Source of the DNA: Ceratodon purpureus | Lineage: Eukaryota > Streptophyta > Bryopsida > Pseudoditrichales > Ditrichaceae | Assembly (NCBI GenBank): GCA_014871385.1 | Contig: CM026426.1 | Span: 94,284,238 to 94,348,237, forward strand | Length of the DNA: 64,000 nt | Direction: 5' to 3' | Shown: piece by piece, positions 3,420-53,044 of the stretch | How positions within the stretch are numbered: the first letter of the stretch is position 1 | How the letters are laid out: each line of letters begins with the position of its first letter | The notes under the pieces: generated by a model | What the model was told of the DNA's origin: nothing | The model's database searches: none | The model's input: only the letters and a program-made list of their open reading frames with translations | Made by a program: the position numbers and the translations under genes

Positions 3420-3600
3420 TTTTCTCGCGGCGGGACCTTCGATCTCCCACCCTCCGTCCCTGCGCGACCTCCAATCTCCCACCCGGCACAACCTCCAATC
3501 TCCCACCCGACACAACCTCCAATCTTCCGCCCTCCGTCCCTCCCTCAATCTCTCGCGCTTCGTCCCTCCTTGAATCTCCCAATGCTCCTCCACCTCCTAC
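3420..3600. repeat. Pyrimidine-rich minisatellite
   Basis: A degenerate unit of about 24 bp, carrying CTCCAATCTCCCACC and CCTCCGTCCCT variants, repeats several times up to the left end of the 11-kb transposon. The minus-strand reading frames across it, such as repeats of CRVGDWRL, are a by-product of the repeat and are not genes. Confidence 0.75.
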
Positions 3601-3601
3601 A

Positions 3602-3631
3602 GGGTGAGAGTACGTTAGACCCATGTCACTT
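3602..3631 (+). repeat. Left terminal inverted repeat of the 11-kb transposon
   Basis: This begins GGGTGAGAGTAC, followed by GTTAGACCCATGT. It pairs with the right end at 14819-14848. The flanking TACA lies at 3598-3601. Confidence 0.85.
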
Positions 3632-3639
3632 TTGGCAAA

Positions 3640-4190
3640 AACCTACTGTATCGGTTGTACTCAGAAGTACTATATTGTACTATGAGTACTAAGTCCCGGT
3701 CACCGTTGGCCGTCGGATGAAGGGGTAGTCAGGGAGTCACGAGGATCGTCAGATCTGGCTCGGCCAATGGGAAGACGTCTGCGTCACGTGGACAGGGAGG
3801 CTGCGAGCATCGTCTGCAAGAATCTTGGGATAAAGAGGACGGTGACAAGCTGGCTGGTTTGAGTTAGGCTGCAGCATCCAATGTGAACAACATTGTGATG
3901 TGGATCTTACTTGCGGTCACAGATTCGAGATGTATAACTTGGTATCTTCAATTTTTTATGTGCCTAGAGCTATGGTTAAGTAGAATTTATGCTTATTTTG
4001 GATGAATATTAGATGAAATCAAGTACATGGTGTGCATATTGTGATGAAAATTTGTATTTAATTTGAATTTTAGTGTCCTTATTCAACTTGTAAATATAGG
4101 GTGTAGGGTGATTCAGTTACTTGTTGAATGATTTTCCATAGAATACATTTGTGATACCCTACACAGTATTGGAGACATGAAAGCTAGGTA
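3640..4190. other. Non-coding left arm of the transposon
   Basis: No gene is seen. Within the first 90 bp of the element there are five GTAC sites, mostly as AGTACT or TGTACT. A GC-richer stretch around 3690-3790 carries a GGTCACCG motif that recurs, in both orientations, at 5490-5560 just upstream of the SET gene. After 3900 the sequence becomes AT-rich. Confidence 0.6.
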
Positions 4191-5390
4191 TATAGGACAT
4201 CTTAACCCTTCGCTAAATCTATAATTTACTAATAATGTTAGTTATCCACTTCATTGGTTTATTTTTTAATTTATTTTTTATTTCTTCTTATTTTCTTTTA
4301 AATTATAATCTATGAATTCAATTTCCATTATTTGCTTCTTCATCCATTCATCAATTAATTTTTTTGTCCTTCCCTTTTTATTTATTTATTTAATTTTCCT
4401 TTATTCTTCAATCCTCCTCTAGACATCGCATCCCATCTTCATAAAAAAATCAATTACCCACATTGTGAGTTCTCCACTTCAATTCCAATTGTTTTATAAT
4501 TTTAAATTTTCCTTTGATGATTGGTTTGTTTTTAAAGTTCTTATCTATTGATTTTTTTTTAGTTTATTTCTTCTTCAATCTTCATCCATTCATTCTTTTT
4601 TTTATTGGGTCCTATTTTTATTTATTTAATTAATTGTCTTTTATTGTTCAACCCGTTTGTAGACATCATTTACCATATTCCTAAATATATCATCTACTCA
4701 CCTTGTGAGTATTCCACATCCTATCGTTCTTAATTTAATTTTATTCTTTTGTAGTTTGTTTTTCTAATTATAATCTATGGATTCAATTTTGACTTTATTC
4801 TTCTTCATCCATTCATTCATTATTTTTAAATAAGTCTTATCTTTATTGGTTTTTTAATTTAATTTCATTGTTCAACCCTTTTGTAGACATCCTTCACCAT
4901 CTTCTCAAACCTATCATCTACTCACCTTGTGAGTTCTCTACTTCTATTGCATTCTTCTTTTATTATTATTATTGTTTTTTTTTTTTTTTTTTTTTTTTCA
5001 TTCAAATCAATTGACTAAAGTTTTGATTTCTTTTTTCTTCATCAATTCATTTGTACTTTTTGCTTATTTTTTATTTCTACTATTTTTTTTTTCTACTTTA
5101 TCATATTCCTAAATCTATCATTTCCCCACTTTGATCATCATCCACTTCATTTGCATTTATTTTATGTTTTTTTTATTTTTTTATTTTTATTTTTTATTTT
5201 TTTGTTTTAAATCAATTGATTAAATTTTCTATTTCTTTGTTCTTCATGAATTCATTCATATTCTTTTTTCCCTTTCTATTATATCCATTTTTTTTAATTT
5301 TTTTTTATTTTTTAACTTCCTAAATCTATCATTTGCCCACCTTCTGAGCTGTCCATGTGAATTTCATCTCCTTAATTTTTTTTTAAAAAA
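4190..5390. repeat. T-rich degenerate tandem repeat, ~215-bp period
   Basis: A block reading roughly CTAAATCTATCAT, a variable few bases, CACCTTGTGAG, then TCCACTTC recurs near 4219, 4440, 4679, 4900, 5107 and 5324, a spacing of 208-240 bp. The blocks are separated by poly-T-rich spacers and stretches reading TTCTTCATCCATTCATT. About six units are visible, increasingly diverged toward the right. It lies inside the transposon, between its left end and the promoter region of the SET gene. Confidence 0.75.
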
Positions 5391-5689
5391 TAGCCCGGCA
5401 TGTAGATTTCCTCTATCCTAGCTGGTTGCCTTAGTGACTTATTAATTGCAGTTGGTGAGTTAGGTGTCTTTTCTACTGGCAACCGCTGGTCACCGGTTGC
5501 GTCATCCGCGCCCTCAGCAGGAAACCGGTGACCTCAGGTAATCATACGGACTGACCGGTGACCGACGGTCGTCGTCTCGCACCTCACTTTGGCGGGGAGG
5601 TTAGCGAATCAATGTTTTGAATGAGCTGTTGGTGCTGAGCGTGGCTCCGCTCGTTGTGGACGTTGAGGGAGGGCTTGGCCGCGGCAGGG

Positions 5690-5778
5690 TTTGGGGTGTG
5701 AGGGAGTTGGGTTAGGGTTAGATTCCTCATTGAGGGGTATGCCGTAGACAGATATTGTTGTGAGGGTTTAGGGTCGCG
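5690..5778 (+). promoter_or_regulatory. Telobox-like 5' region of the SET gene
   Basis: The 90 bp before the ATG contain GTTAGGGTTAG, GGGTTTGGGG and AGGGTTTAGGGTC, the last ending three bases before the start codon. These resemble the plant telobox (AAACCCTA), a promoter element that in land plants binds telomere-repeat-binding factors and is common in constitutively or S-phase expressed genes. No TATA box is obvious. The role here is inferred from the motif alone. Confidence 0.45.
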
Positions 5779-8700
5779 ATGGAGGAGAGCTTGACGGCGC
5801 GGACACCGTCTGCTGGTACTGGGCGGGGTAGGCCGGTGCAGTCGAAGTCAGGCGTATCGAGCAGGAGGGAGGAGTCGGCGACGGAGGCCTGCAGCGACGA
5901 GGAAGGGGGCAACGCCGATGCGGTTCGCAATGAGGAGGCGGGTCAGGCATCTCAGCGGAAGAAGATCGGGAGATCCGTGAAGAAGATTGAGTCGGTGGAG
6001 GATGTTGAAGCAGAAATCCGACGTCTGAAGGCGCCCCCTCGCGTACTCACTAGGGAGGATTTCCACAGGGAGTATAACCTCCCCCTCGAAGGTGACAACC
6101 CACATCGGTTCCGGAAGAACACGGTGCGCGCCGAGGCTGTGAAGAAGCTGTTTGGAGCCCGCTACGGAGATTCAGGCCGCGCCGGCTTCTGCTGGCTCAA
6201 CTGCAAGGTACCTGAGGTCGTGGCGCGGGTGAAGTTCCTCCACCCTATCCTGTACCAGCATGGACCAGGGGAAATTCCGAACAATGTGAAGGTTAAGTTT
6301 GCGGAGGGGGTGACCTTTGAATACGAAGAAGGGGCCGGGTTCGTGGACTGGTGTGCCTTCGGTGCAGAGACAAACGAACGCCAACGCTCAAGGTACAAGC
6401 AGGATCTTGCGAAACTCCTGGCGTTGAGGAAGACGTTTGAAGGGAAGGGTCCCGTGGATGTTCGAGGGAAGGAATGGAGGAGTATCAAGGTTGAGCCTGG
6501 AACGGAGGGGGAGCGTGGGGGCGGGACATTTGACAGGAAGGAGAAGCCGCAGCCTCTGAAGAAGGAGGGAGTGGATGCGGGTTTAGGGTCCTGCCTTGGC
6601 GAGACAGGTGATTGCGATGGTAATTTTGAGAGTGGGATGGGTTCTGGGGTGTGTGTGCAGGGAAGTGTGCAAGATCGTAGTGAGGGGTTAGTAGGCTGGA
6701 GAAAGGGTTTGGTGCATGAGCGGCTCAAGGAGTTAGAGGGGTTGATGGGGGTTTTGCACCTGGAATTGAAGGCATTTGCCGTGAAGAAGGTCCAGTGTTT
6801 GGAGAGGACGGAGGCTGCGAGGTCGAAGTGCAAACAAAGAACTTGTTTGGTCGACAGTTGCAAGCATCAGATTCAGCAGAAGTTAGTCCGCATCGACGTG
6901 CTTGAGGCGGAGGGTCAGAGCTCTGTCCGGGAGAAAATTAAGATGGAAGGGATTCAGGAGCAGCTTGAGGAGGAAGAGGCTCAGATGCGGTTGGACCTAG
7001 CTGAGCAAAAAGCAGCCGAGTTGGAGCTGGAGGAGGTGGCAGCAATGGTTGAGGGGAGACAAAAGCTGTTTGATGCACTATCAGCGGAGAACTTCCAGCT
7101 AAAGCGAGGGAAGAGCAACGCCTCCATCTGGCCACGTCCTATGGTGTACAACCAGGGCTTTGATTTGCCCGTCGTTGGGAGTCCGGAGAATTCTGCTTCA
7201 ATTGCAATTACAGCCTGCTGCTTGTGTCTTTTTCCATTCCCCTGTAACGATGTTGTTCTATCTAGTTGTAGTCATCTTTATCACCCTTTCTGTGCGTCCG
7301 TGGTGTTTGTCAATGCCGGTCCGTGCTTGGCGAAGGGCTGTGGATCAATTCCCCATCCCGACTGGTACAACAGCTTTGGGTGGGGACATCCATCTACAGA
7401 AATGCGTGATCGGGGGAGAAGGATGGGCGTGTTGGAGGACAGGAGCAGAGTTCTCCAAGCAAGGGCAGAATGTGCGAAGGAGATGCTGCCATCAAATGGT
7501 ATGTTCTCTGTCTATTATGTATGGTTTCAGTTTTGCAGGGTACAAACGGGTCAGTGTGTGTGATAAGGCTGTATATTGAATAGTTCAATTACTATGTTGT
7601 CGAATTTGCAAACTTGTAGAGTACTTACCAGAGTCTATAAGTACTTACGTCTAGAATGAAACCTTCAAGTGGTAGCAATTTTTTGTGACTGTACTTTTCT
7701 TCGATACAGTCTATTTGTGCGTGCACTTCTTTCTAGTAGGTATGGTATATTGAGTACACTCTGGTCAATGAGAATACAGTGTCTACAGCTGCTGAATTGC
7801 TATTGTACTAAAAAAATGTACATACTTTAATCGGCTTTGTTGTTATAGTACTAAATGTATAGTTCCATTGTGAAGGCGTCGATGAAGCGACGGTGCTCTT
7901 GTACTAATTTCGTAGCCTAAGTACAGAACTCTCGTACTCACTGTACACTTGTGCATGTTAAGTACGTAATGTATAACAATGAGCCTACTGTTTGTATCCT
8001 TGCTCGCAGACAGTGTACATACTATACATTACTGTCCAGTTGAAGGTACTATGATGTCCTTCTTTGGAGTCGTCTAAGCATAGTTAGTACTTTTTGAGTA
8101 AACTTAACTGTATCTTTGGTGCATGCTTGCCACAGAGTCTTCAGGCTTCTCCTTCCATGCGCCTGCTGAGTCGTTACCAATTGTGCTGGAGGAGAGATCG
8201 AGTCAGATTTACGATCCTCAACCCGAAGTGCAAGGTCAGAGATTACTGCCGGTGACGCAGCAACATGCCCCTTCGAAGACGTTGTCGAAGCATAATGCGG
8301 CTGGAGCGAAGCGGAAGAGAGATGAAGTACCGCACTTTGAGTGCTTGGAGGGAGGAGGTGCTGCGAGATCACAACTTAGGGAGCCCGAGCTGGACTCTGA
8401 AGATGAGTCCTCAAGTGACGAAGAAGGAGACCAGAAGATGCCTAGGCTCCCCTCCAGCTCCGGGACAACCACGTCAACTCGCAACGGTGACAAGGATGCC
8501 CTCGGTGAATCTTCGGAGGGAACGTTGCCGATTCTTAAGTCCTACCATCCTGACTTCATTAGCCCCGTCATCGCAGAGGATCCTGATCTAGACCTAGCCG
8601 GGGGGGAGGCTAAGTGGGATTCTCCTATCAGACAGCCCCTCATTGAGGGCAAAGATGACCTTCTTGCTCCCGTGCAGGTGATGGACACGCACATGGAGGT

Positions 8701-10480
8701 GACATCTCCACCGGCAGAACCTGTTCCAGGATCCCAGTGTCTTCCCGGGAGGAAACACGACTTGAGCCCTCCTGAAATTAAAGACCCAGAACCCACAGGT
8801 GAGACTTCTTCACCATTTTTTTAATTGCTGACTCTTAATCGATTTAGTAGGTGTACTCTGTTTAGTTAGTTCCTTCTACTACTGATTTCGATTCTCATTG
8901 CAGGTGCTAGCCAGAGGGGAGTAGAGGGTCGTGGCAAGAAAGTCAAGCAACCCGGCCCCTGCTCTCAGCAGAATCCTCTCGACACTGAAGAGGTTGCGCT
9001 CGAAAATTTACACTCCGTGGACAAGAGTGTCACCCAGCTTTTTCACGAAGCTCTTGCTGGTGGGGGGGATGTAGAACTGAAACTCCACACTTCGACTGAA
9101 AGAATCACGAGGGCACGTGCGAAGGAGAATCCAGAAGCTGTAGATGGCGGTGATGAGGCAGCTCCCGGAAGCTCCAAACAGAAGAAATTGGAGAAGAAAC
9201 GTAAGGTAGGTGGGGCGGCGTCCAAGGGCCGGAAGTAACGGCAATGGAGATAGATATTCTCTGTCAATTTTGGTAGATTTTGTGGAGGGTTTAGGGCATG
9301 CATGAGACTCCTGCCCAGCACTGTATCGTAACCTCGTTTGCGGGGTTCACTTCAATGAATTAACATTGTCGTATAACATTTGTGGGAATGTGGGCTGTTG
9401 GGATGGGAAACCTACCAGGGCCAGTTCACTTATCTGATTGAAGATTTGTCTAGGGGACTAGAGAAGACCCCAATCCCTCTTGTCTTCTCTGAATTTGCTT
9501 TGCCTAAATTTCAGTACATCAACAAGAGTATTGTACACGACCAGGCTCATGTGAATCCTACGTTGTCCAGTCTAGGCAAGGGATCATATTGTTCATGCCC
9601 TTCAGGGGACTGCTTGACCGCCAAGTGTCAATGTACATGTGCAACAACCGCCAACGGTGGTAGATTTGCATACAGGGCAGGCGGTTTCCTCAAGGACTCT
9701 TTTCTCCAACGACGCATACATGAGGCATACGACTGTACTAGTACTCTGCAGTGCTACTGTACTAAGCTACGTCGTATTGAGAGTGTTGTCACATGTGGGG
9801 TTCACAAGTCGGCTGCCTTCATTTCTGAGTGCAATGCAAAGTGTGGGTGTTCAATGGATTGTGGGAACCGTGTTGTACAGCAAGGGATGAGATACGGAGT
9901 AGAGGTATTTCGTACAGCCCACATGGGATGGGGTATCCGGGCAAGAGTACCTATCCCTAGAGGGGCGTTTGTCTTTGAGATGACGGGAGAGATTTTGACA
10001 AATGGTGAGCAAATATTGAGGAACCGAGGAATGAAGGGAGGCTCGACTTATACCTTACAGATAGATGCCGACTGGGCTGCTGAACGAGTATTGGATGACA
10101 ACTCAGCCCTGTGCCTTGATGCAACCCGGTTTGGGAATGTGGCCCGATTCCTCAACCACCGGTGGGTCCCACTTTTATTTGGCCGTATTGTATAAGCCGG
10201 TTTATACTTAGGTTTCTATACTTATAATTTTTTTTTTTGGATCTACAGGTGCGAAGATTCGAACTTGGTAGATGTCCCAGTCCTGGTCGGGAGGTTAGAC
10301 CGTAGCTTTTACCAGCTGGCATTCTTCACAAAACGCAAGATTCAGCCATTGGAGGAACTAACGTGGGATTATGGAACTGACTTCAGTAGAGAAGACCCTG
10401 ATCTGCCGTACTTTGAATGCAAGTGTGAGAGTACAGTGTGCAGGGGAAAAGCAGAGTTATTCAGTACTTGTTCTACCTAG
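5779..10480 (+). CDS. Transposon-borne RING-H2-like/coiled-coil/SET (SUVR-type) histone methyltransferase, 5 exons
   Basis: My splice model is 5779-7498, 8136-8798, 8904-9205, 9419-10161 and 10249-10480. All introns are GT-AG, phases agree, and the total is 3,660 nt (1,219 aa plus stop). Residues 1-240 are a globular region I do not recognise. About 310-460 is coiled coil. Residues 480-521 form a RING-H2-like finger (CCLC, CSHLYHPFC, then C-x4-C, an unusual last pair). KKLEKKRK near 890 is a likely nuclear signal. From about 900 the protein follows plant SUVR1/2/4: pre-SET cysteines, a SET core with FLNHR joined across the last intron to CEDSN (the conserved NHxC), WDYG and a post-SET CKCESTVC. 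All zinc and catalytic motifs look intact. SUVR proteins methylate histone H3 lysine 9, so that is the expected activity. The weakest call is intron 3: without it there are two genes, a 905-aa one ending at 9238 and a SET gene with no upstream ATG. The phase-perfect join favours one gene. Two ORFs could also be a real alternative transcript. Confidence 0.8.
7560..8120. promoter_or_regulatory. GTAC-rich intron of the SET gene
   Basis: The 637-bp first intron (7499-8135) contains about 16 copies of the palindrome GTAC, often as AGTACT, TGTACA or TGTACT. About 2.5 are expected by chance in this length. The sites are scattered with no fixed period, so this is an enriched short motif and not a tandem repeat. 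The same motif crowds the other non-coding parts of this transposon. Confidence 0.7.
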
Positions 10481-10675
10481 GGTACACTAACCACATATTG
10501 TACATAGTGTACAAATGCAGTACATTTCTTAGAAGACAATTTGTACATATTTTGAATATTGTACACAATGGACACAATGGACATATTATATCATCGGCTG
10601 AACTGACGGCAATGGTATTCAGAGTTTGTATTAAGCTATAGGAAATACAGTTATGATGATTTGTTTCATTGTGTT
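10481..10675. promoter_or_regulatory. Convergent 3' spacer of the transposon with six GTAC sites
   Basis: The spacer separates the stop codons of the two convergent genes by 195 bp. Its first 90 bp contain six TGTACA/AGTACA-type sites, some in near-direct repeats (TTGTACATA, GTGTACAAA). The two transcripts may overlap or share termination signals here. No polyadenylation signal stands out. Confidence 0.55.
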
Positions 10676-13600
10676 CTATTCTTCGTTAAATGCCCACCAG
10701 TCTCTCAATGCATCCTCACAAATCCTTTTTGACTCAGCTGTAATCTTGTACACTGGACTACCTTTAACTCTATGGGCTGCAAGAACCATTGGGAACTTGC
10801 AAGCTCTGACCAGATGAGCATCTATATGTGCATCAACTGCACTATCACAAAACACGTATGTTTTATCACCTCTTCCATACTTCTTATAGTACTTAGCTCG
10901 GATCACATTGTCCCCAGCAGAAAACACACCACCCCATGGACACGACAAACCCTCTTGCAATACGAACTTTGTACGTTGACATTGCAGTATGTAGTAATCA
11001 ACTCCATCTTCGTTGTCACTCTCTGCCGGGATCATGAAATTATCACCCACACACACCAAGTCACCTATCTCCACTGAAGTTCCATCGTGAATCCAGTTGG
11101 CATCGTCATCAAGCAAATCCAGTTGGCTTGCTACAGTGCCGGCACTAAGCGGCTGTAGACGCTGAACTTTCCACTCCTGCACATGAAGGAAGTTTTCACA
11201 GTTATTCCAATCACCATCGACACAAGGGATGCAAAAGCAAGATAATTCACGGGTTCTAAGAAGAGTAGGGTCAGATACAGAGAATCCCATGACAGAGTGC
11301 AAATTCTTAGAGCCTGGTAAAGTACGACATTTAATACTACTATCTCTGTGATCTACTTCGAATTCTCCTATGTTCCAGAAGACACGGGAGATTGGGTTAG
11401 TTGTTGACTGAGCATATGTGCTAGAAACACGCTCAGAGTAATTTTCCTTCAAGAAATCAACAACGTGCCCAGCATTCTGAAGCGGCCTGAGGGGGTTCCG
11501 AATCTGCTCCGCTCTCAGCGCCCTTTTCACCACTGCACCTGCACCATCCCACTCCCCCTTCCCGTGAGCAGATTCAAAAAAATTCCACCGCATCAAGCAC
11601 CCCCCAGTGAGAGACGGATACCGACCAACAAAAAACATGGCAGTCGCACACTTGAATTGCGAGCTGCAGCCGTCACTGAATACCCAATGTTCCTCTATGG
11701 TAAGTCCAGCATCAACCACCCAGTCCCAATGCAACATTAAGCAATGTTGCACAAATGCCGAATCATGTGCCTTATCATCTGAAATATAATAATGCGTCTG
11801 CTTCATGATTTCGTCACCTTCCCTCCACATCGTGATATGTACAAGAATGGTTACACTAGTGCTGAAATAATACATGCTTTGCACTTCGTTTTGAATTGCA
11901 AATGTATAATTTTCAGCATAATCTATGTGGGACACAAGAACCCCTTCTGGGATATTCTTCATCATGAGCTGACACTGCTCATCTTGCCACCTCGCTCTGA
12001 AATTGTGTGTCACGAAAGTCGTCACTGTCTTCTCCATATACGAGAGGAACTCATGGACCGGCGTTTCCTTGAAAGCCTCTCTCAATCTCTTCTTTGGCTG
12101 CCCTGTCTCTGCATGCACTCCAACCTCGTAGTACTCAAAGCACTTCCACTTCAGTACAAATGTCTGAGAGTCCTGTAACTCTAATGGACAGACCTTGAAT
12201 AAATGAAAGCCACACTGTGTACAATCACCCATAAGGCACTCTAACCTATGCCATCTCTCGAACTCTCCTTTAGGACATAGACAAGCCTCCCACATGGCTG
12301 TAATGTGTTTGAAAATTGAGACGTGAGCATGGCAACCGGTCCCTTGTTCATCTGCACACACCACACAAAGACATGTGCAGTCTGTTGAGGTATGGAAACC
12401 CCTCAGCTTGTCCCTCAGAGTGATTAATCCAGCCTTCATCATGTCCATCTCAACATGATAGATGCAGCAACAGGTATTCCTCTCTTTTAATTTCTTTACC
12501 CACCACGGCTTCAACCTCTCGAATGCCCTCTGTCGAACACTGCATTCAGGGTGGATTTCGAGGAAACGTTGGAAGACCGACGTCTGTACAAACATGACAT
12601 CGAAGTACACGTTGCCCTAGGTTAGTACTCAATAACCATTCCGGATACTTTAAGTACTAGAGCTCTACATATTCTACAAGATAACCACATCCTAGTACTA
12701 TTAAAGTACGTCTGAATTACTTTAGTTACCTTGAAGTAGTAGTGTAATACAAATGGTACTCTAGACTACCCATGCAATTAGCATCCCATGATACATAGTT
12801 CGATAAAGGATACAAGGTGTACACAAATTTCTTACAGTCAGTAGGACTAGCACAGTGCCAGTACATCTTGGAACTATCAAAAACTTGAGGGCCTAAACGG
12901 CTGTACTCTAAATACAAGATCCACAATCAAAAGTACGAATATGATTGTCCCACAGCCAGGAGAATACAACTGTACTCCTAGACAAAGTATTGAAACTACA
13001 GAGCATAGAGTAATGCGACGTAATGTACTCTTCAATGACCAAGGTGGAGGAACAGTACATTCTAGTGGGTACATCAAAAGATAGAGCACTCTACGTAGTA
13101 CACATTGCCAAGTTTTAAAACAGAGTTGAAAAGGATACATGGTAAACTTACTTGTGTCTCGCAGAGATAATGAGTAGGATGAGGTTCCAGCCAGAGTTTG
13201 CGCCCTATCCTATGCCTAACAATGTCCTTCTTGTTCGGTGAAACCTTGGTCTGTATCTCCCACCAATGGAGTATGCACTCTTTGACATAATCAGAAATAC
13301 CCGCCCTTGGCTGCCGAGACAAACGTAACTTCGGCAGTAACCCCTGAGAATCCTCCTCTGGTAACCTCCTCTTCAAAGCAATGCTAATACTCTCTTTAGT
13401 TGTGTCCAGTATTCTAGACAAGGCACCCACTCGGACATTAGAGCCGCAACTAACAGCAGCATCTAGAAGAGCTGATTTCCGAGCTAAGTAATCATGAGAA
13501 TTTGCAACCTTGACTAAACGAAGCTCATTCTTAAAGTTGTCAATAAACGCATCCCTAGCTTGTGCTTCTTGTGGACGGTGATAACAATCAGGCAAAAAGG

Positions 13601-13952
13601 GAGAAACTGTAGAATGACGAAGGACCCTTTCCATGACATCTCTCCGCCCAGCTAGATTCGGACACTGTTTCAACTCTTGAACAATGGCTTGACTGATTCT
13701 CAAGGAAATCCTACTACTCTCTCTCACTGTAAAGGACCGAGCTGCAGCTTGCTCCGCCATGTCATGAGCTAGAACTAGAGACTCTGCTACCCTCTCCCTA
13801 TCACGTACTCTCTGCCTGCTTTTTCTCTCCCGAGCTGCACTAGCGATAACAACTCTTTGAGCCTCAAGGGCTTCAACCTCGGCAGCACGTTCAGCTGGAC
13901 CTGGACGTGCTATTCCCTCTCGTACACGCCGTCTCTTTGCAGTATTTCCCAT
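10676..13952 (-). CDS. DDE-type transposase of the 11-kb element, 2 exons
   Basis: The model is exon 1 13952-13152 (ATG, MGNTAKRRRV) and exon 2 12616-10676, with donor GTAAGT and acceptor CTAG. The join is in phase and gives 913 aa. The N-terminus is basic and alpha-helical (Arg/Glu/Ala-rich), suited to DNA binding. Residues about 315-410 hold a Cys/His cluster (TCCCIYHVEM, CTCLCVVC, CLMGDCTQCGFH), a probable zinc site. The catalytic core is read from SHIDYAENY (Asp about 499), FSDGCSSQFK (Asp about 582) and NFFESAHGKGEWDG, whose Glu 615 or 622 or Asp 624 would be the third acid. These motifs match a family of DDE-like proteins I recall from invertebrate genomes (DxAENY, SDGxxSQFK, HGKGxxDGxG) whose superfamily name I cannot give. 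The reading frame has no stops. It acts in the nucleus, cutting at the inverted repeats. Confidence 0.75.
12617..13151. promoter_or_regulatory. GTAC-rich intron of the transposase gene
   Basis: This 535-bp intron holds about 14 GTAC sites against about 2 expected. The enrichment is as strong as in the first intron of the SET gene, which shares no overall similarity with it. It supports the view that the motif, not the surrounding sequence, is kept. Confidence 0.65.
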
Positions 13953-14818
13953 GAGTAGTTCCTTCGAAGCTAAGTTTTGCAAAGTCCTGAAACTGGAGAG
14001 ACGCGAGAGGAACACTTAGAGAAGAAGTCGAGTACATGAACTTCTGAACCAGCTATGCATAACAGAAGTGTGGGCAAAAAAAAAAAACAGCACAAGGAAG
14101 CATTCAACGAGAGCCCCCTCCACTAGCTCATGAGAGGACTGAGTGAAGGAGACTGAAGCGCCGCCTCGACGCATAATGATGCGCCGCAGTAACGAACTAT
14201 TTGAGGCTCGGCGTCCGATGAAGACGCTGACAGCGAACGTGGACTGCCACGTACTTCTCTGGGAGTACAAAGAGTACTTTAAGCACTAAGAGTACAAGCT
14301 CCTGCGCAGCCACTAGTAAAAAAAGATATATCCGGTAGAGAGTTTTTTGGCTGATTCGACGGTTGGCCATCCTGGGTTAGTTCGTGCTCTTCTAGAAACT
14401 GCCAGAAAAATTAAAAATTAGACAACTTTTGCACAACTTTTGCACTGCAAAAAAACCGTTACTTCTCCTCTAGATCTACGAAATTGTATTTGTGCTACCG
14501 TAGCAGTTCATTTCCCATCTCAGTGGCCTCCATGTCAGGTATTCTCTAACAGGCGGAAGCATTATTTCGACTTTGAATGATCCACGAACTTTGTACTTTT
14601 GTGATAATTTTGTACTTTGTGACATCCGCCTAAAGTTGTGCAAAAGTATCAAATATACATATGTGCTTCCTTTATTTTTCATAACTCTTATCGGGTTAGT
14701 TCCCTTAAAGTATTGTATGACATAGGAAACACAACCAATCGACAGAAAACGACCTCCAACATTGAGTTATTCAAAGTACAAATTCAAGTACTTTGACATT
14801 TTTTCGGTGTGACACACA
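13953..14818. other. Right arm of the transposon: transposase promoter region with GTAC sites
   Basis: No further gene is seen. Ten or so GTAC sites occur here, clustered at 14250-14300 and 14590-14840. GC content is higher at 14100-14250 (probable 5' untranslated region) and the sequence is AT-rich afterwards. The open frame 14270-14016 starts off any conserved context and looks random. Confidence 0.5.
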
Positions 14819-14848
14819 AAAGTACAAGGGTCTAGTGTACTCTCACCC
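14819..14848 (-). repeat. Right terminal inverted repeat of the 11-kb transposon
   Basis: Read on the minus strand from 14848 it begins GGGTGAGAGTAC, then ACTAGACCCTTGT. It matches the left end at 3602-3631. TACA follows at 14849-14852. Confidence 0.85.
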
Positions 14849-14849
14849 T

Positions 14850-17800
14850 ACAGACTCCGGCAACAGCTCTGCTGCAAGCTCGTAGGTTGTTGGAGGGGCG
14901 CGCAAACGTTGCTGCCAGCAACGGTGTCAAGAGGGGGGGGGGGGGGGTGTGGGGAGGGGAGCGCACCTCCCCGTCTTGACACCGCGTGGGTTTGGATGCC
15001 GCGACTATGGGTGAATGACAGCAGCATTAATTTATTCTCCTTCTCAATCCGTTCCATCCAATTTTTTATATGTAAAAAATATCATCAATTTGGAAAATAT
15101 AAGAAATCGGGATTTTTTTAAAAAAAAAACTAGTATAAAAAAATTATAAAAATTCAAAAAAAAAAAAAAAAAAATAAAATAAAATAAACACTATAACATA
15201 ATAAAAACTGAAACAAAACAAAACCTAAAATAATGAAAGATAAGAGAATTATCTGAAATCAGAAACCAAAAAATTGAATGAAGACATAATAAAAACCAAA
15301 TGAAAATAAAATTTTATTCGTAATTTTAAAAATATCTGAATTCGGCAAAAAAGTAAGAGAAGTTGGAAAACTAAGTAAATTAAAAAATGAACGTTGAAAC
15401 ATAATAAAAACCATAACCAAAAATATTGGCAAAAATAATGATAGACAACAAAATTATCTAAGATTGGGAAAAAAAATAATAAAATAATAAAAACCAAAAC
15501 AAAACAACACCTAAAGTGATGACAATGGGTAGGAAAAGTAACGTATATTTGTGGGAGAAGAAGGAAGTTATCAACTAGTAGTTCTCTTACTAAACCATTA
15601 ATTATAAACTATTAACTCTGTAATCAACGTTATACAATTTATTCTACAATATCCATAATGGAAAATCACAAAGGAACTTAGAAAACATCGTTTTAAAGAA
15701 ATGGGAACGATCAAATTGATAGTATTCCAAAAGATTTGAAGAAATAAACATTGAAGAAATAAACATTTGAAATTGGTAAATTAGAACTAAAAAAATTTTT
15801 TTAGGAAGAAAACATAAAATAAATTGTAGAAATTATTAACTTTTGATTATCTTAGAAAACCAGTAATCACAAAGAAACTTAGAAAACCTTATTTGTAATA
15901 ATCATAAAAAACTGGAAAAAAAATACTTTCTTTTTGATGTATAGTGCAACTATGAAATAAAAATAAATGATCTTCAATTTTTTATATTAGAAGAATGAGA
16001 TAAAAATAAAATTAAAAATTAGAAATCCATTAGAGATCTCTAAAATAAATTAAAAAAGAAATAATAACTAATGAGCTTGTCTCCTTGTCCCGTCTCGTAG
16101 ACTATATTCATTAATACTCATTAAAAATAAATAAAAACAAATTAGAAAGATTTCATCTATTCTACTTCCCTCTAAAGTTTCTAATTGAATACATTGTGAA
16201 ACATAAAATTCAAAAATTTAAAAATAAATATGAAAATTAAAAATAAGAAAATTCAATTCAAAAATGATGAAACCTGCCACTAAGATCTCGTAGAAAACAC
16301 TAAGAAATATTAAATGCAAAAGCTTATTAAAAATGATATATGATCCAAAATTAAGAGAAGTGAATCTGAAAGCAAGATTATTTTATAAGAGAACATGATT
16401 TAAAGTTTAAAATTTGGCTTCGTGTAATAATTGTTTCTATAAATAACATCCATATTTTTTTAAATTTAAATATGATATTCCAAATATAAGATCTCTATAG
16501 AAGAATTTCAGTCTTATTTGCCTGAGTATGGACGATGTTTCCTTGACTATGTATTCGCATATTTCTTAAATTTTGGAAGTGAATTGCCTTCATGTTTATT
16601 TTTATTTTTAAAAGAAAGTGTACATTTGAAGACAATTTCAGTGTCCCTGAAACTGTTTGCTTTTGTATACTCTCTATAGGATACAGTTCAAATGAAAGAT
16701 ATTACTCCTCTATAACAATCGCCTTCTACAAACATATCCCTCTTCGCACGTGCTCCACTGATTGGTGGCCACGCTGCAGCAGCTCCCCTCCAAGCTCGTC
16801 GCCTTCAACACCAACACGGAGTAGTTGTTGGCAGCAATAAGGGTAAGAGGGGAGTAAGGGAAGCGCTCCTCTACCTCTCTACTCTGTGCAAGAATGGGCG
16901 CTGCAGTCATAGGGAATGACCAACATCCATTAACATACATCCCCCCGTATCACAATATTAAGAGTTTAAAAAAAAATAGAAACTTGGAAAAAAATAACAA
17001 AAAATGGGGGATTAAAATGTGAGGAAAAAAAAGGAAAAAATAAAAATAAAAACAAGATAAAAACCGAAAAAAAAATAAATCTAAAATGATGATTGCTAGG
17101 AAAATTAACTAAAATTGGAAGATAGAAAATAATTTAAAATAAAAAATTATTAAATTTTGATTATCTTAAAAAACCAATAAATGCATTTCAGGAATCAATT
17201 CATTTAGAATTTGAAAGGTTTGGGCCAAATGTGTTGGTTTAATAATGATAAGGAATTTAGAAAACATCATTTTAAAGAAATGAGAAGAAGAAGGAAATTT
17301 GAAAAAAAAAAAGTTGTACAAAATAATCATTCAATATTAGATAAATTGAGGAATATGACTTGTATAAGTTTATGAAATTCTTATAATTTAATCCACAATA
17401 TCTTAACAGAAAAGTTTATTTGATTTTGATTTAAATTTTTAAATTTTTAAATTTATTTTTCCTTTTCCTACCAAGTATTTTAATTTTTTGCTTTTTAGTT
17501 TTGTTTTGTTTTATTATTTTGTTATTTTAAAAATATTATAAATTTGGAAAATAATTCAAGAAAATTGGGAAAAGTTAATAAAATAATAAACTTTTTCTTT
17601 GATGTATTGTGCGACTATGAAATAAAAATAAATGATCTTCATTTTTTTTCAATATTAAAAGAATGAGATAAAAATAAATTTAAAAAACAAAATACCATTG
17701 AGGACATTTAAAGTAAATTTAAAAAGAAATAATAACAAATGAGCTTGTCTCCTCGTCCTGGTGTCGTAGACTATATCCATTAATATAAATTAAAAAAAAC

Positions 17801-35520: not shown

Positions 35521-38500
35521 CTAGAACATATCGGTTGCACCATTTGCATCGTCATCACCGGATGCTCTTTTAGATCTTGCCTCCTTTCGGAGGACTACCT
35601 TCCACCTCGTGTCTTCTGCTGCGTCTGCATAAAAGACCTGCTCACACTGAATTGGAAATGCAAAAGACTCTGACCCTAGGCCACTCAGTGTGTCAAAGTT
35701 TGCCAAAGTGAACCCCCACTAGTCGGTCTTGATGGTAGCATTGGGTCCACGATAGTTCGCCTTCACCCAGCTTCCCACAAACAACACTGTTTTGTGCCCT
35801 CTGTCTTGCAACGGTTCACTCCCCCGAGCATTAGGTGGTTGACTATCATAGTCACCTGGGTAGTGTAACTCTATAATTTCTTTTAGTTCCCCTACGTACT
35901 CCAAGTCAGCAACAACAGGGCTCTTATCTTTATGTCCATTGATACACGGCCTTCGAAATACAGCACATATGCCACTGTCATAAGTTGGAAGGAATTCCTC
36001 TCCACTGGCCACTCTGAAACGGTTACCTTGGGAATAAACACTTCTGTATCTACTAGCCATGCTCAAGGGTGGCCTAGATGACTCCACAACTAAAGGGTCC
36101 AATCGTATACCAGATTCCTCTATGTTGTCTACCTCTCCTCAAAGCCAATCGTTGAATCGAGGCAAGTCAGCTATCTCAGGTGGCAGAGTTGATCTCCGTC
36201 GTTTGTTTTTTCTCTTTGTGTGGAGACGTCTCCACTGTGTTTGCTCCACGGCTCTTTCTTCCACAGCATCTTGATATCTCCTGTACAAAAACATAAAAAA
36301 TAAAACACTGTCAATCAAGCTCTATCACATTTATACTGTAACAAGGATTACAAAGCACATCAATAGCCAAATAGTCTCTCATTTTCATTTTACATTGAAT
36401 GTAATAACGACTTCTACAATTAAAAAAATGCAATAATAATTATATAAAATATGACATAAAACTTACAAACTGACTTGCTGAACAAATCTGCTGCACGATA
36501 ATTCACTCAACCCTGATGCATTGACATTGAACCTACCATCGGATCAATACGAGCACTGAGATAGACTATAACAGTTTAGCCACGTGAAAGAAGTCCATAC
36601 TCTGATTCATAACTGGACCTAAACTTAAGAACAGAGCCAAAACTTATGTGTGACCAGGGGAATATTGAACACGTGAATGATTATGAATACAACATAATCA
36701 ATGATTATCAGAAAACAAGGCAACATGCTTAAAAAACATGGCAATACATCTCGGTTCCGATAACATTTAGATATTGTTCATACTCCAGTGCACAGTGAAG
36801 CCATTCGTGACAACATTTCAATACGCACATGTGGAAAACAGATTACGCAAAAATCCATGAGGAGAACAAGCCTCAAGGATACTTACCGTTGCAAAGGCTC
36901 AAGGTGTATGGCGATGTCTAACACAAAGCTATGCATTTATTGGCGTTCAATTTCGCTCAATGGTCTCTCTTTAGGGTCACCCTCAAGCACGTCCTCCGAC
37001 ATTGAGAGATCTTCATTGTTTTCCCAGACTCGCTTCGGAGTGGCCCTGTACTCAAACATGTACTCCGTTAAAAATCCTGACGCCTCCATAATGGAATACG
37101 ACTTTGCCATGCTGCCTTCAGGTTTGGCTCTATTCCTTACGCTTCCTTTCAGTTCCTTCATATACCGCTCAAAGGGGTACATCCAGCGTGTGTGTACTGG
37201 ACCGCATAGAAATAGATCCTGCACCAAATAACGAGGAAGGTGGAAAGTAATATTGAAAAAAACAGGAGGGAATTCTTTCTCCATGGTACATTGTATCTCG
37301 CTCACGTCCGTCATCTTTTGCTCTTTTGTATCCGCATCGACTGTTTTTGCACATATCTTTTGAAACAATCGACTCATGTGCATATCAACCCGACAACTTT
37401 TGCATCCCCAATTCCACGCAAACAGAGAGGTAACACTTGCTGTAGAAGCACATGCAGATCATGGGACTTTAACCCTCTTAGTTTTCCACTACTAATCTTA
37501 GAGTGCAGATTGCTGCAATAACCACTTGGCATTTTCAAGTGTCGGAGAGTTTCGAGCACCGTCTGCCTGTGATGAGGAGAGAGTACGTACGGTGTGTCTG
37601 GCATGTACAGCCTCCCTATGTCTCCAATTCGTCTCATCCAAAGGTGTTTTCTTATATGCCGGTTCTCTAAGTCCATGCGTACCGACGGAGTGTCTATCTC
37701 TCCAAATAGCATTTGCAAAATACTATCCGCAAGATTTTTTTCGCAATGCATAATATCTAACACGTGTCGAACAGGCATTTCCTGGCACATGTTCATACAA
37801 ATAAAGTTTCAAATACCAATGTCTTCTACAAATATGATCTACAGCGGTGGATGTACATGCAATCTTTGACTCACGGTATGATGAACATGACGTGACTCAA
37901 CTCATACTGGAATGAAAATCTCTATTTTATTTCCAATAATGATGAAAGAAGGAAATAGAAGTGAAACAAAGGTGTGTACTCGATGTTGCTGAACTTCTAA
38001 ATTGCCATAAACGAATTAAATTTCAAATCTGCGATGGAGTGTGAGTACCTCCCAGTATGGTAGTCGATAGAGTATACTGAGTCGGTTTACTCCATGTTGT
38101 TTGACTGGGTCACCGTCGCTATCCGGTCTCCCCCCATCGTCCAACCATTTCTGGCGTTCTTCTGCATATTCTTGAACATCTTTTCTAGACATGCGTGGAG
38201 CCTCACCTCGAACCTCTGTTTTGTTGTTGAACGCTTTTCGAGCTCTTCTCCACGGATGGTTTGAATCCAGATTCCTCCTCGCTCCTAAATAAACAACCTT
38301 GTTAATTGTAGGCCGACAACTCTCACCGCATGTTTGCTCTCCGCAGTGTATACAACCGGAGTAGCCTTTTGTGACCTGATGTGATATTAATCCAAGGGCT
38401 GGATAATCTCCAACTATCCACATCAACATCCCTCTCAAATAAAAACTCCTTGGTTCATCTGGGATAGAGCAATTGTCGGATTTAATTCCACGCCATAGCT

Positions 38501-39257
38501 GCAGCAAGTCATCAACGATGGGTTCTAAAAATACATCAATAGTTTTTGATGTAGGCGATTTTGGGCCTAGAATTAAAAGCACTAAAGAAATAAAGAATTT
38601 TCTGGTCGCTAACTAAGGTGGGAGGTTATACGGTGCCAGTAAGACGGGCCAAGTCGAATGAGTGGTTGAGTGCATGTTGAACGGGTTGATGCCGTCCAAT
38701 CATAGTGCAAACCGAAGAAACCTAGGATCATTTGCATACTCACTCCATCTAGACAAAATCCACCTCCAAATAGGGTTGTCTATCATTGACCGCATCACAT
38801 CGGCCTCACTCTGATACTCCATATGGAATTGGAGTAGTTTTGCGATTTCAGGAAATCTGAATAGCCGTTGGAAACGTTTTACTATAGAAAAGTACTTGAC
38901 TACTTTCGCAGGAATACTATTTGATCCAGCCATGTACCTGCTCTTGCCGCAACCAGGTTCCGTACACTTGTCCAATCACTTGTTATCCTTCTAGAGCAAC
39001 ATGTGACCGTCAGGGCAACAATGAATGTCCTCGTGCTTGAGCCCTAATCTCATCAAAAGGGAACGGCATTCATAGGATGTCATAGGTAACGGATTGTCTT
39101 CAAGAGCCTCCATGGTGATGGTCTGTAATATGTCCTCTGTATCAGCAAATTCTTGCACTTGTTGATATACGTCCTGAACCATACGACGTACATCCACCCC
39201 ACTGTCACAAGTTTGTGGATGTCTCGAAGCAGCAGCAACTCTGGCGCTGAAGTCCAT
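35521..39257 (-). pseudogene. CACTA (En/Spm) transposase Tnp2 with DUF4218 and DUF4216 parts
   Basis: Parts in order are 39257-38016 in one frame (CGKSRYMAGSNSIPAKVVKYF, trimmed by stops; DGINPFNMHSTTHSTWPV; LILGPKSPTSKTIDVFLEP; MWIVGDYPALGLISHQVTKG), 37796-37374 (DIMHCEKNLADSIL; RGLKSHDLHVLLQQVLPL), 37383-36937 (DUF4218: EFPPVFFNITFHLPRYLV, GPVHTRWMYPFERYM) and 36102-35521 (DUF4216: YVGELKEIIELHYPG, VLFVGSWVKANY, CEQVFYADAAEDTRWKVVL). These are the diagnostic blocks of plant Tnp2 transposases. At least four in-frame stops interrupt the first block (near 38991, 38976, 38700 and 38611), so this copy is not functional. I could not find a convincing CACTA...TAGTG pair of ends. One CACTAGAA lies at 35234 beyond the 3' end. 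Confidence 0.85.
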
Positions 39258-42045: not shown

Positions 42046-42327
42046 CTCTGCAATGCCGGCGCTCGCTAGAGGCCATGCACTTTTTTTCAATCTGAGTTTG
42101 TTGTTTCTGCAAATTAGTTTGTTGTTTCAGCATTGGTGCTTCGATGGCGCGGTTGGATTTCGGGCTTCTTAAGCAGAGATGCAGGGAGTTTCCAATCACA
42201 CATTGCCTTCTTCTCGGTTTTGAGTCTTCTGTTCTCTGCGTTTATGTGAATTGTCCTTGTTGGGGTTTATTGATCTTGGTGCATTGGTTTTTTGGTTGAG
42301 TTGCGCTGGTTCGGGGGCTCTGTTTCG

Positions 42328-44874
42328 ATGGCGCTGGTCCAGCAAGGGATGTCGAAGTTTTTGTATGGGGGGCGAATGGGGTTTGGGGAGTTGGGTTCAT
42401 TGAGCGAGGGGTTTGAGGGGGGCTGCAGACTAACCGAGCTATGTGGGGTGATCGAGGGTGAGTCTGGGGCGCTTGGGGTGGGTTCTGATGAATTAAGTTT
42501 CGGGGGAGGTTTTGGGACGGAGTCTGGGGCGGAGAACGCCTTTGTAAAGGCGATGGGTAAACCACAGCCCACGCAGAGTTCAGACTCCGATTGCAAGGAG
42601 CTGGACCCTGCTGTGGCGTCCCCTGTCTTCGAGGCTGCTCGTCGCAGACGCCGGAGCTATGAGTATTCCCGGCATTTCCAGGACAGTTGGGCCGCGAAAA
42701 TGCCCTGGGCTCAACCAGTCATGGGGAATGATGGGAGAGTCTGTCAGGTCTGTTGCAAAATCTGTTCTGATGTAGAAGGTCGTGACAAATTGTTGGTGCC
42801 GAAGTTGGACTCTTTGTGGAAACATGCTGGGAGACGTAAGACTCTGGTTGGATTCGGGAAGATTAGCAAGGGATCGCACTATTTTCTATCTACGTGCCAG
42901 CACGTAAAGAATGAGACGATCCATTTCGCAAGGGGTGGCTCGGAGACAATTGTGCAGAAGGTGGTCGAAGGTGCTGTGAGAGAAAAAAAGAAAAAACTTG
43001 TGCAATTTCGCACACTGTTCTCGGTGCTCTCCTCTAGAAGGCCAATGGCCGACTATGAGAACATGCAGGGGCTTCTTGCGCAGCTGCAAGTCCCGGACAT
43101 GCCTCGTAAACACTGGTCTGGGTTCTGTGGGTGGGAGATGGCTGTGTCCATGGCTGCTGTTCTCTCAGCTCATGCCAAGAAGCTCATTGCCGATGCTCCA
43201 TTTTTTTCCCTGTCTGCCGATGAGGTAACGACCATTGATCACCAGTCATGGCTGAGTCTTCATATTTACATTGTTGTCGGATTTAGGAGAGACTCCATTC
43301 TGTTACAGTTGCAGCGTCTTGTGGAGGGAAACGGAGCCTCGGCTATCCTAGAAGCTATACTGATTGGATTGGATTACCATGGAGGACTGAAGGTTGATAA
43401 GATTGCAGAAAAGTGTGTATCGTTTGGAGCAGATGGTGTCTCTATTTTCCAGGGATCCCAAACTGGAGTCACTACTCAGTTGAAAAAAAAACACGCCCCC
43501 TACATGCTGGGGGTGCATTGCATGGCGCATAGGACGAATCTCGCTGTTCAACCCATTTCGAACTTGCCCCTTGTGGCCAAGTTGGAATCTTTGTGTAAAG
43601 CAATGTATGCTTATTTCTCTGCTTCTCCGAAGAAGCATCTTGAGTTCCAGAAACTTGCTGACCTCATGGAAACAGAGGGTCTGAAAATGTTGCGAAACGT
43701 GAAGACCCGGTGGATTTCACTCCTGGATCCACTTCGAAGAGTATTGGGAGAGTACAAGACTCTCATTGTGAAAATGTGCGAGGATGCTGCTCTTAAGGAG
43801 CCTGATCTAACTCCGAAGCAGGCTGCGGCCAGGGACTCAGCTCGGCTCAACTGTGATCTACTCTGTGACATCGGCACACTCTTAGCCTTGCCTTGTATCA
43901 TGCCTTTGCTGGAATCTGTCAATTGTCTGATGAAATTTGCTCAGTCTACTCACGTATATGTTTCTGACTATGTGGCAGCTGTAAAAATCTGTCAAGCAGA
44001 ACTCTACATGATGTACATTGATGGTGATTCGTCTTTCCAGAGGCAACACTTCCAGCAGTTCTGTGACGTTGTGGAGGACCACTCCTACACTATCTCACAA
44101 GAGTGGGTGGTGGATCTAAATGATGGGACAAAGAGTCTAAGTTTCCGGATTGGTGAGCGCACTTACTCAGCTCATAAGCTGTGTCCCACATCTGGGCAGA
44201 AACTGCCTGTGAGCCGAGGTGATTTTGAGGAGGTGGTGTCTTCGGTGAAGGGGCAATGTCGGGATGCTGCTGAGGTTCTGATTTCGGAGCTGGAAAAGAG
44301 GTTCCCGGATTATGACCTGATGAATGCTTTCTCTGTGGTTTTCCCGCAATTCTGGTTACAGCCTAACTGTGATGAGCTCTTTCCATTGTACATGAAAACT
44401 ATTTGGAACCACTATTGCGTGGCCAAATCTGTGGACACAGGGACGGAAGAGGAACCTATGATGGTACAGTACGATGCCCCTCTTGATGCTCGGACTTTGG
44501 GAATTCAAACCTCCCTATTCAAGCTCACCATGAAATCGAATTCGAAGTCAGCTATGGCTGAACCTCGGGATGTGAATCCCATGACAAAACTATGGGAGAA
44601 GATAGGCCAGAATGGCCTCATGTTGAGCAGATTATCCGAGTTTTTTAAACTCAGTAATATTGCCATCTGCTCAGTCCTCGGCAGTGTAGAGGATGAGCGG
44701 ACTTTTTCGACACTTGGATTTATGAAATCAAAAGTCCGTAACCGCTTGGGTGGCCATCTGGATACGTGTGTGAAGATTTTCGCACAGCCTTGGTATAATC
44801 AAGAAACTTTTCCTTATACCGCAGCAATCTCACATTGGAGTGAGGCTCGGAAACAAATGGGGGTTGAAAACTAA
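42328..44874 (+). CDS. hAT-superfamily-like transposase, uninterrupted frame
   Basis: The ATG at 42328 (MALVQQGMSKFLYGG) gives 848 aa without an intron or stop. The N-terminal part is Gly-rich, followed by a possible zinc-finger region (CQVCCKICSDVEGRDKL, then a His about 20 residues on). The RNase-H-like core includes FFSLSADEVTTIDHQSWLS (first acid), GADGVSIFQGSQTGV (second acid), HCMAHRTNLAVQ and KTRWISLLDPL. The C-terminus has VEDERTFSTLGFMKSKVRNRL, the hAT dimerisation signature. The overall style matches the ZNF862/KIAA-like branch of hAT proteins, with HCMAHR and TRW motifs. Length and lack of stops suggest a recently active element or a domesticated gene. It binds DNA as a dimer and cuts at element ends if active. 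Another in-frame but non-ATG extension upstream is possible. Confidence 0.8.
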   Translation: MALVQQGMSKFLYGGRMGFGELGSLSEGFEGGCRLTELCGVIEGESGALGVGSDELSFGGGFGTESGAENAFVKAMGKPQPTQSSDSDCKELDPAVASPVFEAARRRRRSYEYSRHFQDSWAAKMPWAQPVMGNDGRVCQVCCKICSDVEGRDKLLVPKLDSLWKHAGRRKTLVGFGKISKGSHYFLSTCQHVKNETIHFARGGSETIVQKVVEGAVREKKKKLVQFRTLFSVLSSRRPMADYENMQGLLAQLQVPDMPRKHWSGFCGWEMAVSMAAVLSAHAKKLIADAPFFSLSADEVTTIDHQSWLSLHIYIVVGFRRDSILLQLQRLVEGNGASAILEAILIGLDYHGGLKVDKIAEKCVSFGADGVSIFQGSQTGVTTQLKKKHAPYMLGVHCMAHRTNLAVQPISNLPLVAKLESLCKAMYAYFSASPKKHLEFQKLADLMETEGLKMLRNVKTRWISLLDPLRRVLGEYKTLIVKMCEDAALKEPDLTPKQAAARDSARLNCDLLCDIGTLLALPCIMPLLESVNCLMKFAQSTHVYVSDYVAAVKICQAELYMMYIDGDSSFQRQHFQQFCDVVEDHSYTISQEWVVDLNDGTKSLSFRIGERTYSAHKLCPTSGQKLPVSRGDFEEVVSSVKGQCRDAAEVLISELEKRFPDYDLMNAFSVVFPQFWLQPNCDELFPLYMKTIWNHYCVAKSVDTGTEEEPMMVQYDAPLDARTLGIQTSLFKLTMKSNSKSAMAEPRDVNPMTKLWEKIGQNGLMLSRLSEFFKLSNIAICSVLGSVEDERTFSTLGFMKSKVRNRLGGHLDTCVKIFAQPWYNQETFPYTAAISHWSEARKQMGVEN

Positions 44875-52209: not shown

Positions 52210-52910
52210 GGGATCTGACTAAACACACCAAGTATCCCAAAATATCTTATCCAGTGTTTGATGAATCAGGGGATCTAGATTGGCATGTCAGACGGTTTAA
52301 GGTTATTGCCCGAACCAATGGGGTCACCAACACTGAAGACCTCCAAAATATTTTTGGCACCACGCTCCAAGGAAACCACATTAATTGGTACATTGACTTT
52401 GAGACTGAACACTTCTACGCAACCTAGGAGGACATAGAACGAAGTTTTCTTCACAAATTTAGAAAACTTAAAACTAGTTCAGAAGTCTTGAGAGCTTTGG
52501 GCAGCATTTTCGAGGACAAAAATGAATCCGTGGACAAGTTCTACAATAGGTTCAAGCAACTTGCGGACAAGTTAAGCCAACGCCCTGAAGAAGACTACCT
52601 ATGCGAATGGTTTAAGAAGGGACTATTACCATGGATTCAACAAGGTATTGTAATCCGTCGGGTTAAGACCCTACCAGATATACTAAATGCAGCCAATGAC
52701 ATTAGCCGAGAATTAGGGGCACAAAACAAAACCCAGGGACCCTTGCTACCTTTACCAAGTTTGCGACCAGAGAATAGGCCCCCTTTGACTCCCTGTTCTA
52801 GCTGTGGGAAAATCCATGGAGGTCGATGCTGGTATGCCAATACCCCTGCTCGGACTGAAGATAACCGCCGTTCCCGTCCTACCACGGCCGCAGTAACCCA
52901 GAAGAAGTAA
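52210..52910 (+). pseudogene. Retrotransposon gag (broken)
   Basis: The frame reads LDWHVRRFKVIARTNGVT, NIFGTTLQGNHINWYIDF, then a TAG, DIERSFLHKFRKLKTSSEV, ESVDKFYNRFKQLADKL and YLCEWFKKGLLPWIQQGIV, the alpha-helical capsid-type domain typical of plant Ty3/gypsy gag. It ends at 52910. A zinc knuckle (CWECGSLNHRRS, stop, C) follows in another frame at about 52947-52990, with its last spacing position also changed to a stop. The parts are in two frames with stops, so no intact polyprotein remains. Confidence 0.75.
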
Positions 52911-53044
52911 ATGTCGATGCCTTCCAGCCCAGCAGAAGTGACGCCTGCTGGGAGTGTGGCTCATTGAACCATCGACGCAGCTAGTGTCCACAGCTATATC
53001 AAAGATGGGCACAATACCGTGCCACACCAGGGAATCAAGGGACC

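Follow-up and report, generated by a model that had tools for sequence, protein, structure and literature searches.

Why would a DNA transposon carry a SUVR-type histone methyltransferase gene next to its transposase? This question is raised by positions 3602-14848 of the window, a 64,000-nucleotide stretch of contig C6 (110.5 Mb) in the searched genome of the moss Ceratodon purpureus (362.5 Mb in 151 contigs). The initial annotation described matched inverted ends and a TACA flank around a transposase gene and a complete SUVR-type gene, both with continuous frames. Self-alignment of the window bears out the ends and the flank and identifies 3602-14848 as a DNA transposon with the following features.

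3598-3601, no strand: left target-site duplication, TACA (alignment of ends)
3602-3634, + strand: left terminal inverted repeat, matching the right end in 29 of 33 columns
4210-5355, + strand: AT-rich subterminal array of six diverged 39-nt repeats, 204-240 bp apart (repeat analysis)
5779-7498, + strand: SET gene exon 1, with an N-terminal part without a Pfam name, a coiled coil and a RING-H2-like finger (frame and splice prediction)
7499-8135, + strand: SET gene intron 1, dense in AGTAC/GTACT at 25 per kb (gene model and motif count)
8136-8798, + strand: SET gene exon 2 (gene model)
8904-9205, + strand: SET gene exon 3 (gene model)
9419-10161, + strand: SET gene exon 4, pre-SET and first part of SET (Pfam; alignment with SUVRs)
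10162-10248, + strand: SET gene intron 4, with the position and phase of a host SUVR intron, inside the Arg codon of FLNHR (intron comparison)
10249-10480, + strand: SET gene exon 5, end of SET, post-SET and stop (gene model, alignment)
10676-12583, - strand: transposase exon 2, predicted RNase-H-like catalytic core (invariant D232, D285, D315 and D357 of the ORF at 10679-12616)
12584-13151, - strand: transposase intron, dense in AGTAC/GTACT at 28 per kb (gene model, motif count)
13152-13952, - strand: transposase exon 1, ATG at 13952, full gene 902 aa (gene model)
13953-14848, no strand: terminal non-coding stretch, AGTAC/GTACT at 14.5 per kb (motif count)
14817-14848, - strand: right terminal inverted repeat (alignment of ends)
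14849-14852, no strand: right target-site duplication, TACA (alignment of ends)

Elsewhere in the window, tandem repeats of roughly 160 bp each (62390-64000, by self-alignment) run off the end, and long open frames at 36764-38612, 42274-44871 and 52428-53641 resemble other transposons on visual inspection (CACTA-like, hAT-like, Ty3-like gag/protease).

The window element is an autonomous, recently mobile moss DNA transposon with two tail-to-tail genes. Three further copies of its family (family A) lie in the genome with other flanks; they are 11.25 kb long, 99.6-99.87% identical and bounded by 4-bp duplications that all differ (GAAT, AGTC and CTGA). Both genes are open in all four near-identical copies, encoding the 902-aa transposase and, in five exons, a 1219-aa SET protein. 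A fifth copy, partly inverted and with CATG as its duplication, retains 85-92% identity over its longer blocks. Three elements of a diverged family C, located on C2 and 14.85-15.1 kb long, have the same gene order and the duplications TCAA, CTTA and TACT. Over the longest blocks that align, 8.6-8.8 kb in length, these copies are 98.5-99.5% identical; they show no DNA match to the window element over the first-read 10 kb (L020-L022; E 1e-5, matches of at least 40 bp). Perfect 4-bp duplications flank all eight complete elements examined, and the eight share no common target motif. Several families carry the two genes, and families A and C have moved with 4-bp duplications.

Twenty pattern sites were read over 10 kb each; alignment of ends or genes identified 12 of them as real element ends, and SET-domain sequence is present in nine of these 12; L024, L029 and L033 have element ends and no SET domain within the 10 kb read. 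Among 37 further sites, each read over 300 bp, 29 are real ends, belonging to families A (6), B (11) and C (12). Four sites on C8 (L064-L067) all start with GGGTGAGAGTACAGTTTCGAGG, a sequence without a match in any of the three families, and probably represent another repeat. A single weak coiled-coil match at L023 was discounted as chance, since the end at that site does not belong to an element.

The transposase has no Pfam match, and Pfam searches of 19 relatives gave one OTU and one C2H2 fusion and otherwise no convincing match. A sequence-profile search of the PDB returned one match (E 0.2), Foldseek returned weak matches such as NurA, Argonaute and RNase HI, and a possible integrase match came from VIA, a second look at the Foldseek candidates. 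Together with the invariant aspartates, the predicted core suggests a putative DDE/DDD-type enzyme. A scan of viral contigs with the transposase gave nine pattern stretches and no relatives. Two of the six 39-nt repeats near the left end carry the palindrome ACTCACCTTGTGAGT, whose complement holds the GGTGAG of the element end, and the repeats are possible transposase-binding sites. One distant transposase homologue, P0047, is fused to an OTU-type cysteine protease domain, and related elements may therefore carry other ubiquitin-linked genes.

The second gene was initially called a complete SUVR type, a description that suits its C-terminal part only. Pre-SET, SET and post-SET of SUVR type are present by Pfam and by alignment with SUVRs, the NHRC and ELTWDYG motifs are in place, and the window copy keeps 92 of the 120 columns in which at least 24 of the 25 host SUVRs agree. 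WIYLD (PF10440), the N-terminal hallmark of plant SUVR1/2/4 and found in nearly all host relatives among the 120 matches listed of 590, has no match in the five ORFs of the element SET gene at Pfam E up to 0.1. In its place, the product has a coiled coil (residues 309-442) and a RING-H2-like finger (about 480-521). The Pfam zf-RING_2 model matches this finger weakly, in 9 of 15 members with a best value of 0.0012, the window's own copy being without a match. The structure model of the N-terminal part is poor (pLDDT 52.5) and contains helices, and the predicted donor of exon 1 is supported by the divergence of homologues at that point. Judged by its sequence, the chromatin protein of the element is a coiled-coil/RING-like N-terminus fused to a SET module derived from plant SUVR1/2/4.

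Among the matches listed, the nearest relatives of the element SET are plant SUVR1/2/4 proteins (120 listed of 590 matches); this protein search excluded short exon ORFs by length, so that its absence of closer matches is uninformative on other mosses. The element SET is 42-47% identical to 25 aligned host SUVRs and 44-45% identical to the moss host SET, and the SETs of different element families are 45-58% identical to one another. A tree was built from 10 element SETs, 24 angiosperm SUVRs and the Ceratodon SUVR, the 25 host rows being hand-chosen from the 120 listed relatives and L034 (153 of 324 positions) being left out; for diverged copies, tree and codon comparisons used blast-aligned pieces in lieu of full gene models. 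All ten element SETs fall on one side of a 100/100 branch, apart from the host SUVRs. Given that the tree has no root and that the program flags long branches as meeting, this is consistent with a single origin of the element SETs rather than proof of one.

The host SUVR protein of C. purpureus, P0101 (M758_1G137900), matches one C1 locus in five stretches of 89-100% identity, some extending into introns. One intron is common to this gene and the element gene: it lies inside the FLNHR Arg codon, after the second base in both, a comparison in which only the first base of the next host exon was read. Shared position and phase suggest that the element SET descends, from long ago, from an intron-bearing SUVR gene, and the element has apparently undergone an old capture of a plant SUVR-type gene. 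Recent capture from the moss SUVR is rejected by the low identity of element and host SETs and by their separation in the tree. An origin as a retrocopy is likewise rejected by the shared phase-2 intron, although the element gene lacks two others of the host gene, those near residues 380 and 452.

A six-frame search of the genome yielded at least 142 SET exon matches (142 scored of 736 candidates), counted whether or not an element was identified around each, and at least 68 transposase matches (68 scored of 1554 candidates). A SET exon lies within 5 kb of 58 of the 68 scored transposase places, at a distance of 457-1446 bp, and the two genes are convergent, tail to tail, in all 58. Random placement in 500 runs gave a mean of 0.48 pairings and at most 4. 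For the other 10 transposase places, the 142 scored of 736 SET candidates include no partner. Stops are present in 66 of the 142 scored SET exons and absent from 76. Contig C6, which its size suggests to be the male sex chromosome, holds 30.5% of the bases and 85 of the 142 scored SET matches; stop-free matches are rarer there (39/85) than elsewhere (37/57). A single C1 locus, the one that matches the host protein P0101, stands against these at least 142 matches. Most SUVR-like SET exons in the C. purpureus genome are probably transposon-borne, a caution for its annotators.

Wherever a ratio of non-synonymous to synonymous change could be computed for the SET gene, as the initial annotation had proposed, it lies below one, though the values are saturated or moderate. 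Between the window copy and family B (L018), dN is 0.32 and dS 3.46, a ratio of 0.09 with dS saturated. The window copy gives 0.33 against L031 and 0.41 against the fifth copy, both of which contain stops, and family C gives 0.23-0.65 against older copies. These closer comparisons (0.23-0.65) are moderate and have decayed copies on one side. In the recently moved family C copies, the aligned SET gene is stop-free; the transposase alignments contain one to four stops, which may come from alignment across introns.

A further feature of the element is its density of the short motif AGTAC/GTACT, which reaches 6.76 per kb in the window element versus 1.38 in the rest of the window. Two family C copies have 6.98-7.00 per kb, one 9.8-kb family B locus is weak at 2.96 per kb, and two backgrounds stand at 1.38 and 1.95 per kb. 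In 500 draws with the same nearest-neighbour frequencies, the 16 motifs of SET intron 1 compare with a mean of 4.3 and a largest draw of 17, which reaches the observed count. The 16 of the transposase intron compare with a mean of 3.7 and a largest draw of 11, and the 13 of the terminal stretch at 13953-14848 with a mean of 2.0 and a largest draw of 8. In family C, the 500-bp bins rich in the motif are those at both ends, directly following the first SET exon and in the gaps of the transposase match, so that the motif is clustered at ends and introns in both families A and C. These clusters favour self-targeting of an element protein; they could also serve the transposase alone.

On balance, we consider it probable that the SET protein is a self-targeted chromatin protein of the transposon that modulates silencing of the element. 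An element protein, either the transposase or the SET fusion, would bind the AGTAC clusters and thereby bring the SET protein to the element's own DNA and chromatin. There it would alter H3K9-type methylation or compete with the host SUVR/H3K9 machinery. With a RING-like finger present and WIYLD absent, the element protein might, more speculatively, supply ubiquitin instead of reading it. Retention of the SET gene in many copies, next to the transposase, suggests that the element manages its own chromatin instead of relying on the host to do so, and a role in silencing or site choice, as proposed in the initial annotation, is plausible.

SUVR4 is active as an H3K9 methyltransferase and binds ubiquitin through its WIYLD domain, and Arabidopsis SUVR2, with a conserved SET domain, has no activity and is nonetheless needed for silencing (PMC4260354, PMC7218100). 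H3K9 methyltransferase activity is a possible property of the element SET, which keeps NHRC and ELTWDYG, yet the SUVR2 case indicates that these motifs are insufficient for catalysis. Of the effects considered, a weakening or tuning of element silencing seems the likeliest, at slightly less than even chances; it is favoured by the precedents of VANC and the TET/JBP enzymes discussed below, which act or are thought to act in that way. Since SUVRs are silencing factors, the direction could be the opposite. Held more tentatively still is the fuller reading that this lineage has carried a SUVR-derived SET as a standard gene since before its families split, self-addressed through the AGTAC clusters and with a RING-like module replacing the ubiquitin-binding WIYLD. 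If so, well over a hundred element-borne SUVR-type SET exons would stand against the one host locus found.

The opposite direction would amount to self-restraint: the SET protein would deposit repressive H3K9 methylation on copies of its own element, which would spread during windows of weak silencing yet limit both its copy number and the damage to its host. The retained NHRC and ELTWDYG motifs agree with this, as does the active relative SUVR4, which turns H3K9me1 into H3K9me2/3, in transposon chromatin according to a cited title (PMC4260354, PMC7218100). The many places and several recently moved families are unlike strong restraint, and selection for self-silencing would be weak on a selfish element, so we regard this reading as unlikely, if a serious contender. 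Less probable again is a part in transposition itself, with the SET/RING-like protein aiding the transposase at donor or target sites through complex assembly or site choice instead of acting in H3K9 silencing. The regular pairing and convergent layout of the two genes would fit, and a coiled coil with a RING-like finger suggests protein assembly or ubiquitin transfer; the eight duplications, however, share no target motif.

Capture of host genes is common in plant DNA transposons, as in Pack-MULEs, and the SET gene might be a functionless passenger, part of a host SUVR that was picked up by one element and replicated with it. The stops in 66 of the 142 scored exons point that way, but the gene is kept in families whose SETs have diverged to 45-58% identity, has no stop in those family A and C copies that moved recently (in C, over the aligned parts), and retains 92 of 120 host-conserved columns, with the ratio of 0.09 against family B at saturated dS. 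These observations make a passenger very improbable. That chance ends enclose a host SET gene merely neighbouring a transposase is virtually impossible, being refuted by four copies with distinct flanks and duplications that each carry both genes. The self-targeted chromatin protein remains the reading that we prefer, and known systems can be compared with it.

Plant SUVR1/2/4 proteins share with the element protein pre-SET, SET and post-SET domains, 42-47% identity across the 25 aligned hosts and, for the Ceratodon gene, one intron; the element protein differs in its N-terminus, in which WIYLD was not found, and in being mobile and multicopy. SETMAR, like the moss element, unites SET and transposase sequences, but it is a host fusion gene at one locus and not a two-gene mobile element. 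Harbinger elements make 3-bp and MuDR/VANDAL elements 9-bp target-site duplications, and neither length was found in the moss elements, whose duplications are 4 bp. Sola transposases are of the DDD type. Sola2 duplications are described in the cited part of PMC3627910 as AT-rich and 4 bp long; the moss elements have the length in common and mixed rather than AT-rich sequences, in a comparison by description only.

The statement in the initial annotation that no DNA transposon was known with such a gene proves too wide, since HarbingerS and MuDR transposons of Phytophthora are already in print as carriers of SET histone methyltransferase genes (Kojima and Jurka 2014, cited by Kojima 2025, PMC12730594). 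As in the moss element, a SET histone lysine methyltransferase accompanies the transposase. These systems differ in belonging to oomycetes and in their Harbinger or MuDR transposases, and the cited passage is silent on SUVR descent; in the moss element the transposase matches no Pfam family, the duplications are 4 bp long, and the SET derives from a plant SUVR and has one intron in common with the host gene. What stands is the narrower form: a literature search, with Repbase Reports and most subscription journals outside its coverage, turned up no account of a DNA transposon that carries a SET gene derived from a plant SUVR, or of such a gene joined to this moss transposase. Fungal DNA transposons with a TET/JBP dioxygenase also have an epigenetic enzyme on board, thought to counter silencing (PMC12730594); in the cited account they target 5-methylcytosine and have no SET protein. 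Conversely, no TET/JBP gene was found among the Pfam matches of the eight element ORFs scanned.

Whether transposons write histone marks to their own advantage could be studied in this moss, which offers near-identical copies that look live, families at greater divergence for comparison, an evident counterpart in the host and candidate binding sites. The main plant body of a moss is, moreover, haploid. The likeness in working is found in VANDAL elements: VANC21 binds short motifs in the introns and in the intergenic and terminal non-coding parts of VANDAL21, and DNA methylation is lost there (PMC5735166). As far as the cited part describes them, these too are plant DNA transposons with an extra protein and motif clusters in introns and terminal non-coding DNA; they differ in being MuDR-type, in having the motif YAGTATTAY in place of AGTAC and in lowering DNA methylation, and the moss side of the likeness is one of sequence anatomy. 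Motif clusters in non-coding parts thus indicate a similarity of working and not membership in MuDR/VANDAL. VANC is not known to have a SET domain. Should the moss protein counter silencing, it would parallel VANC by means of an enzyme; should it silence, it would be a rare case of built-in self-restraint.
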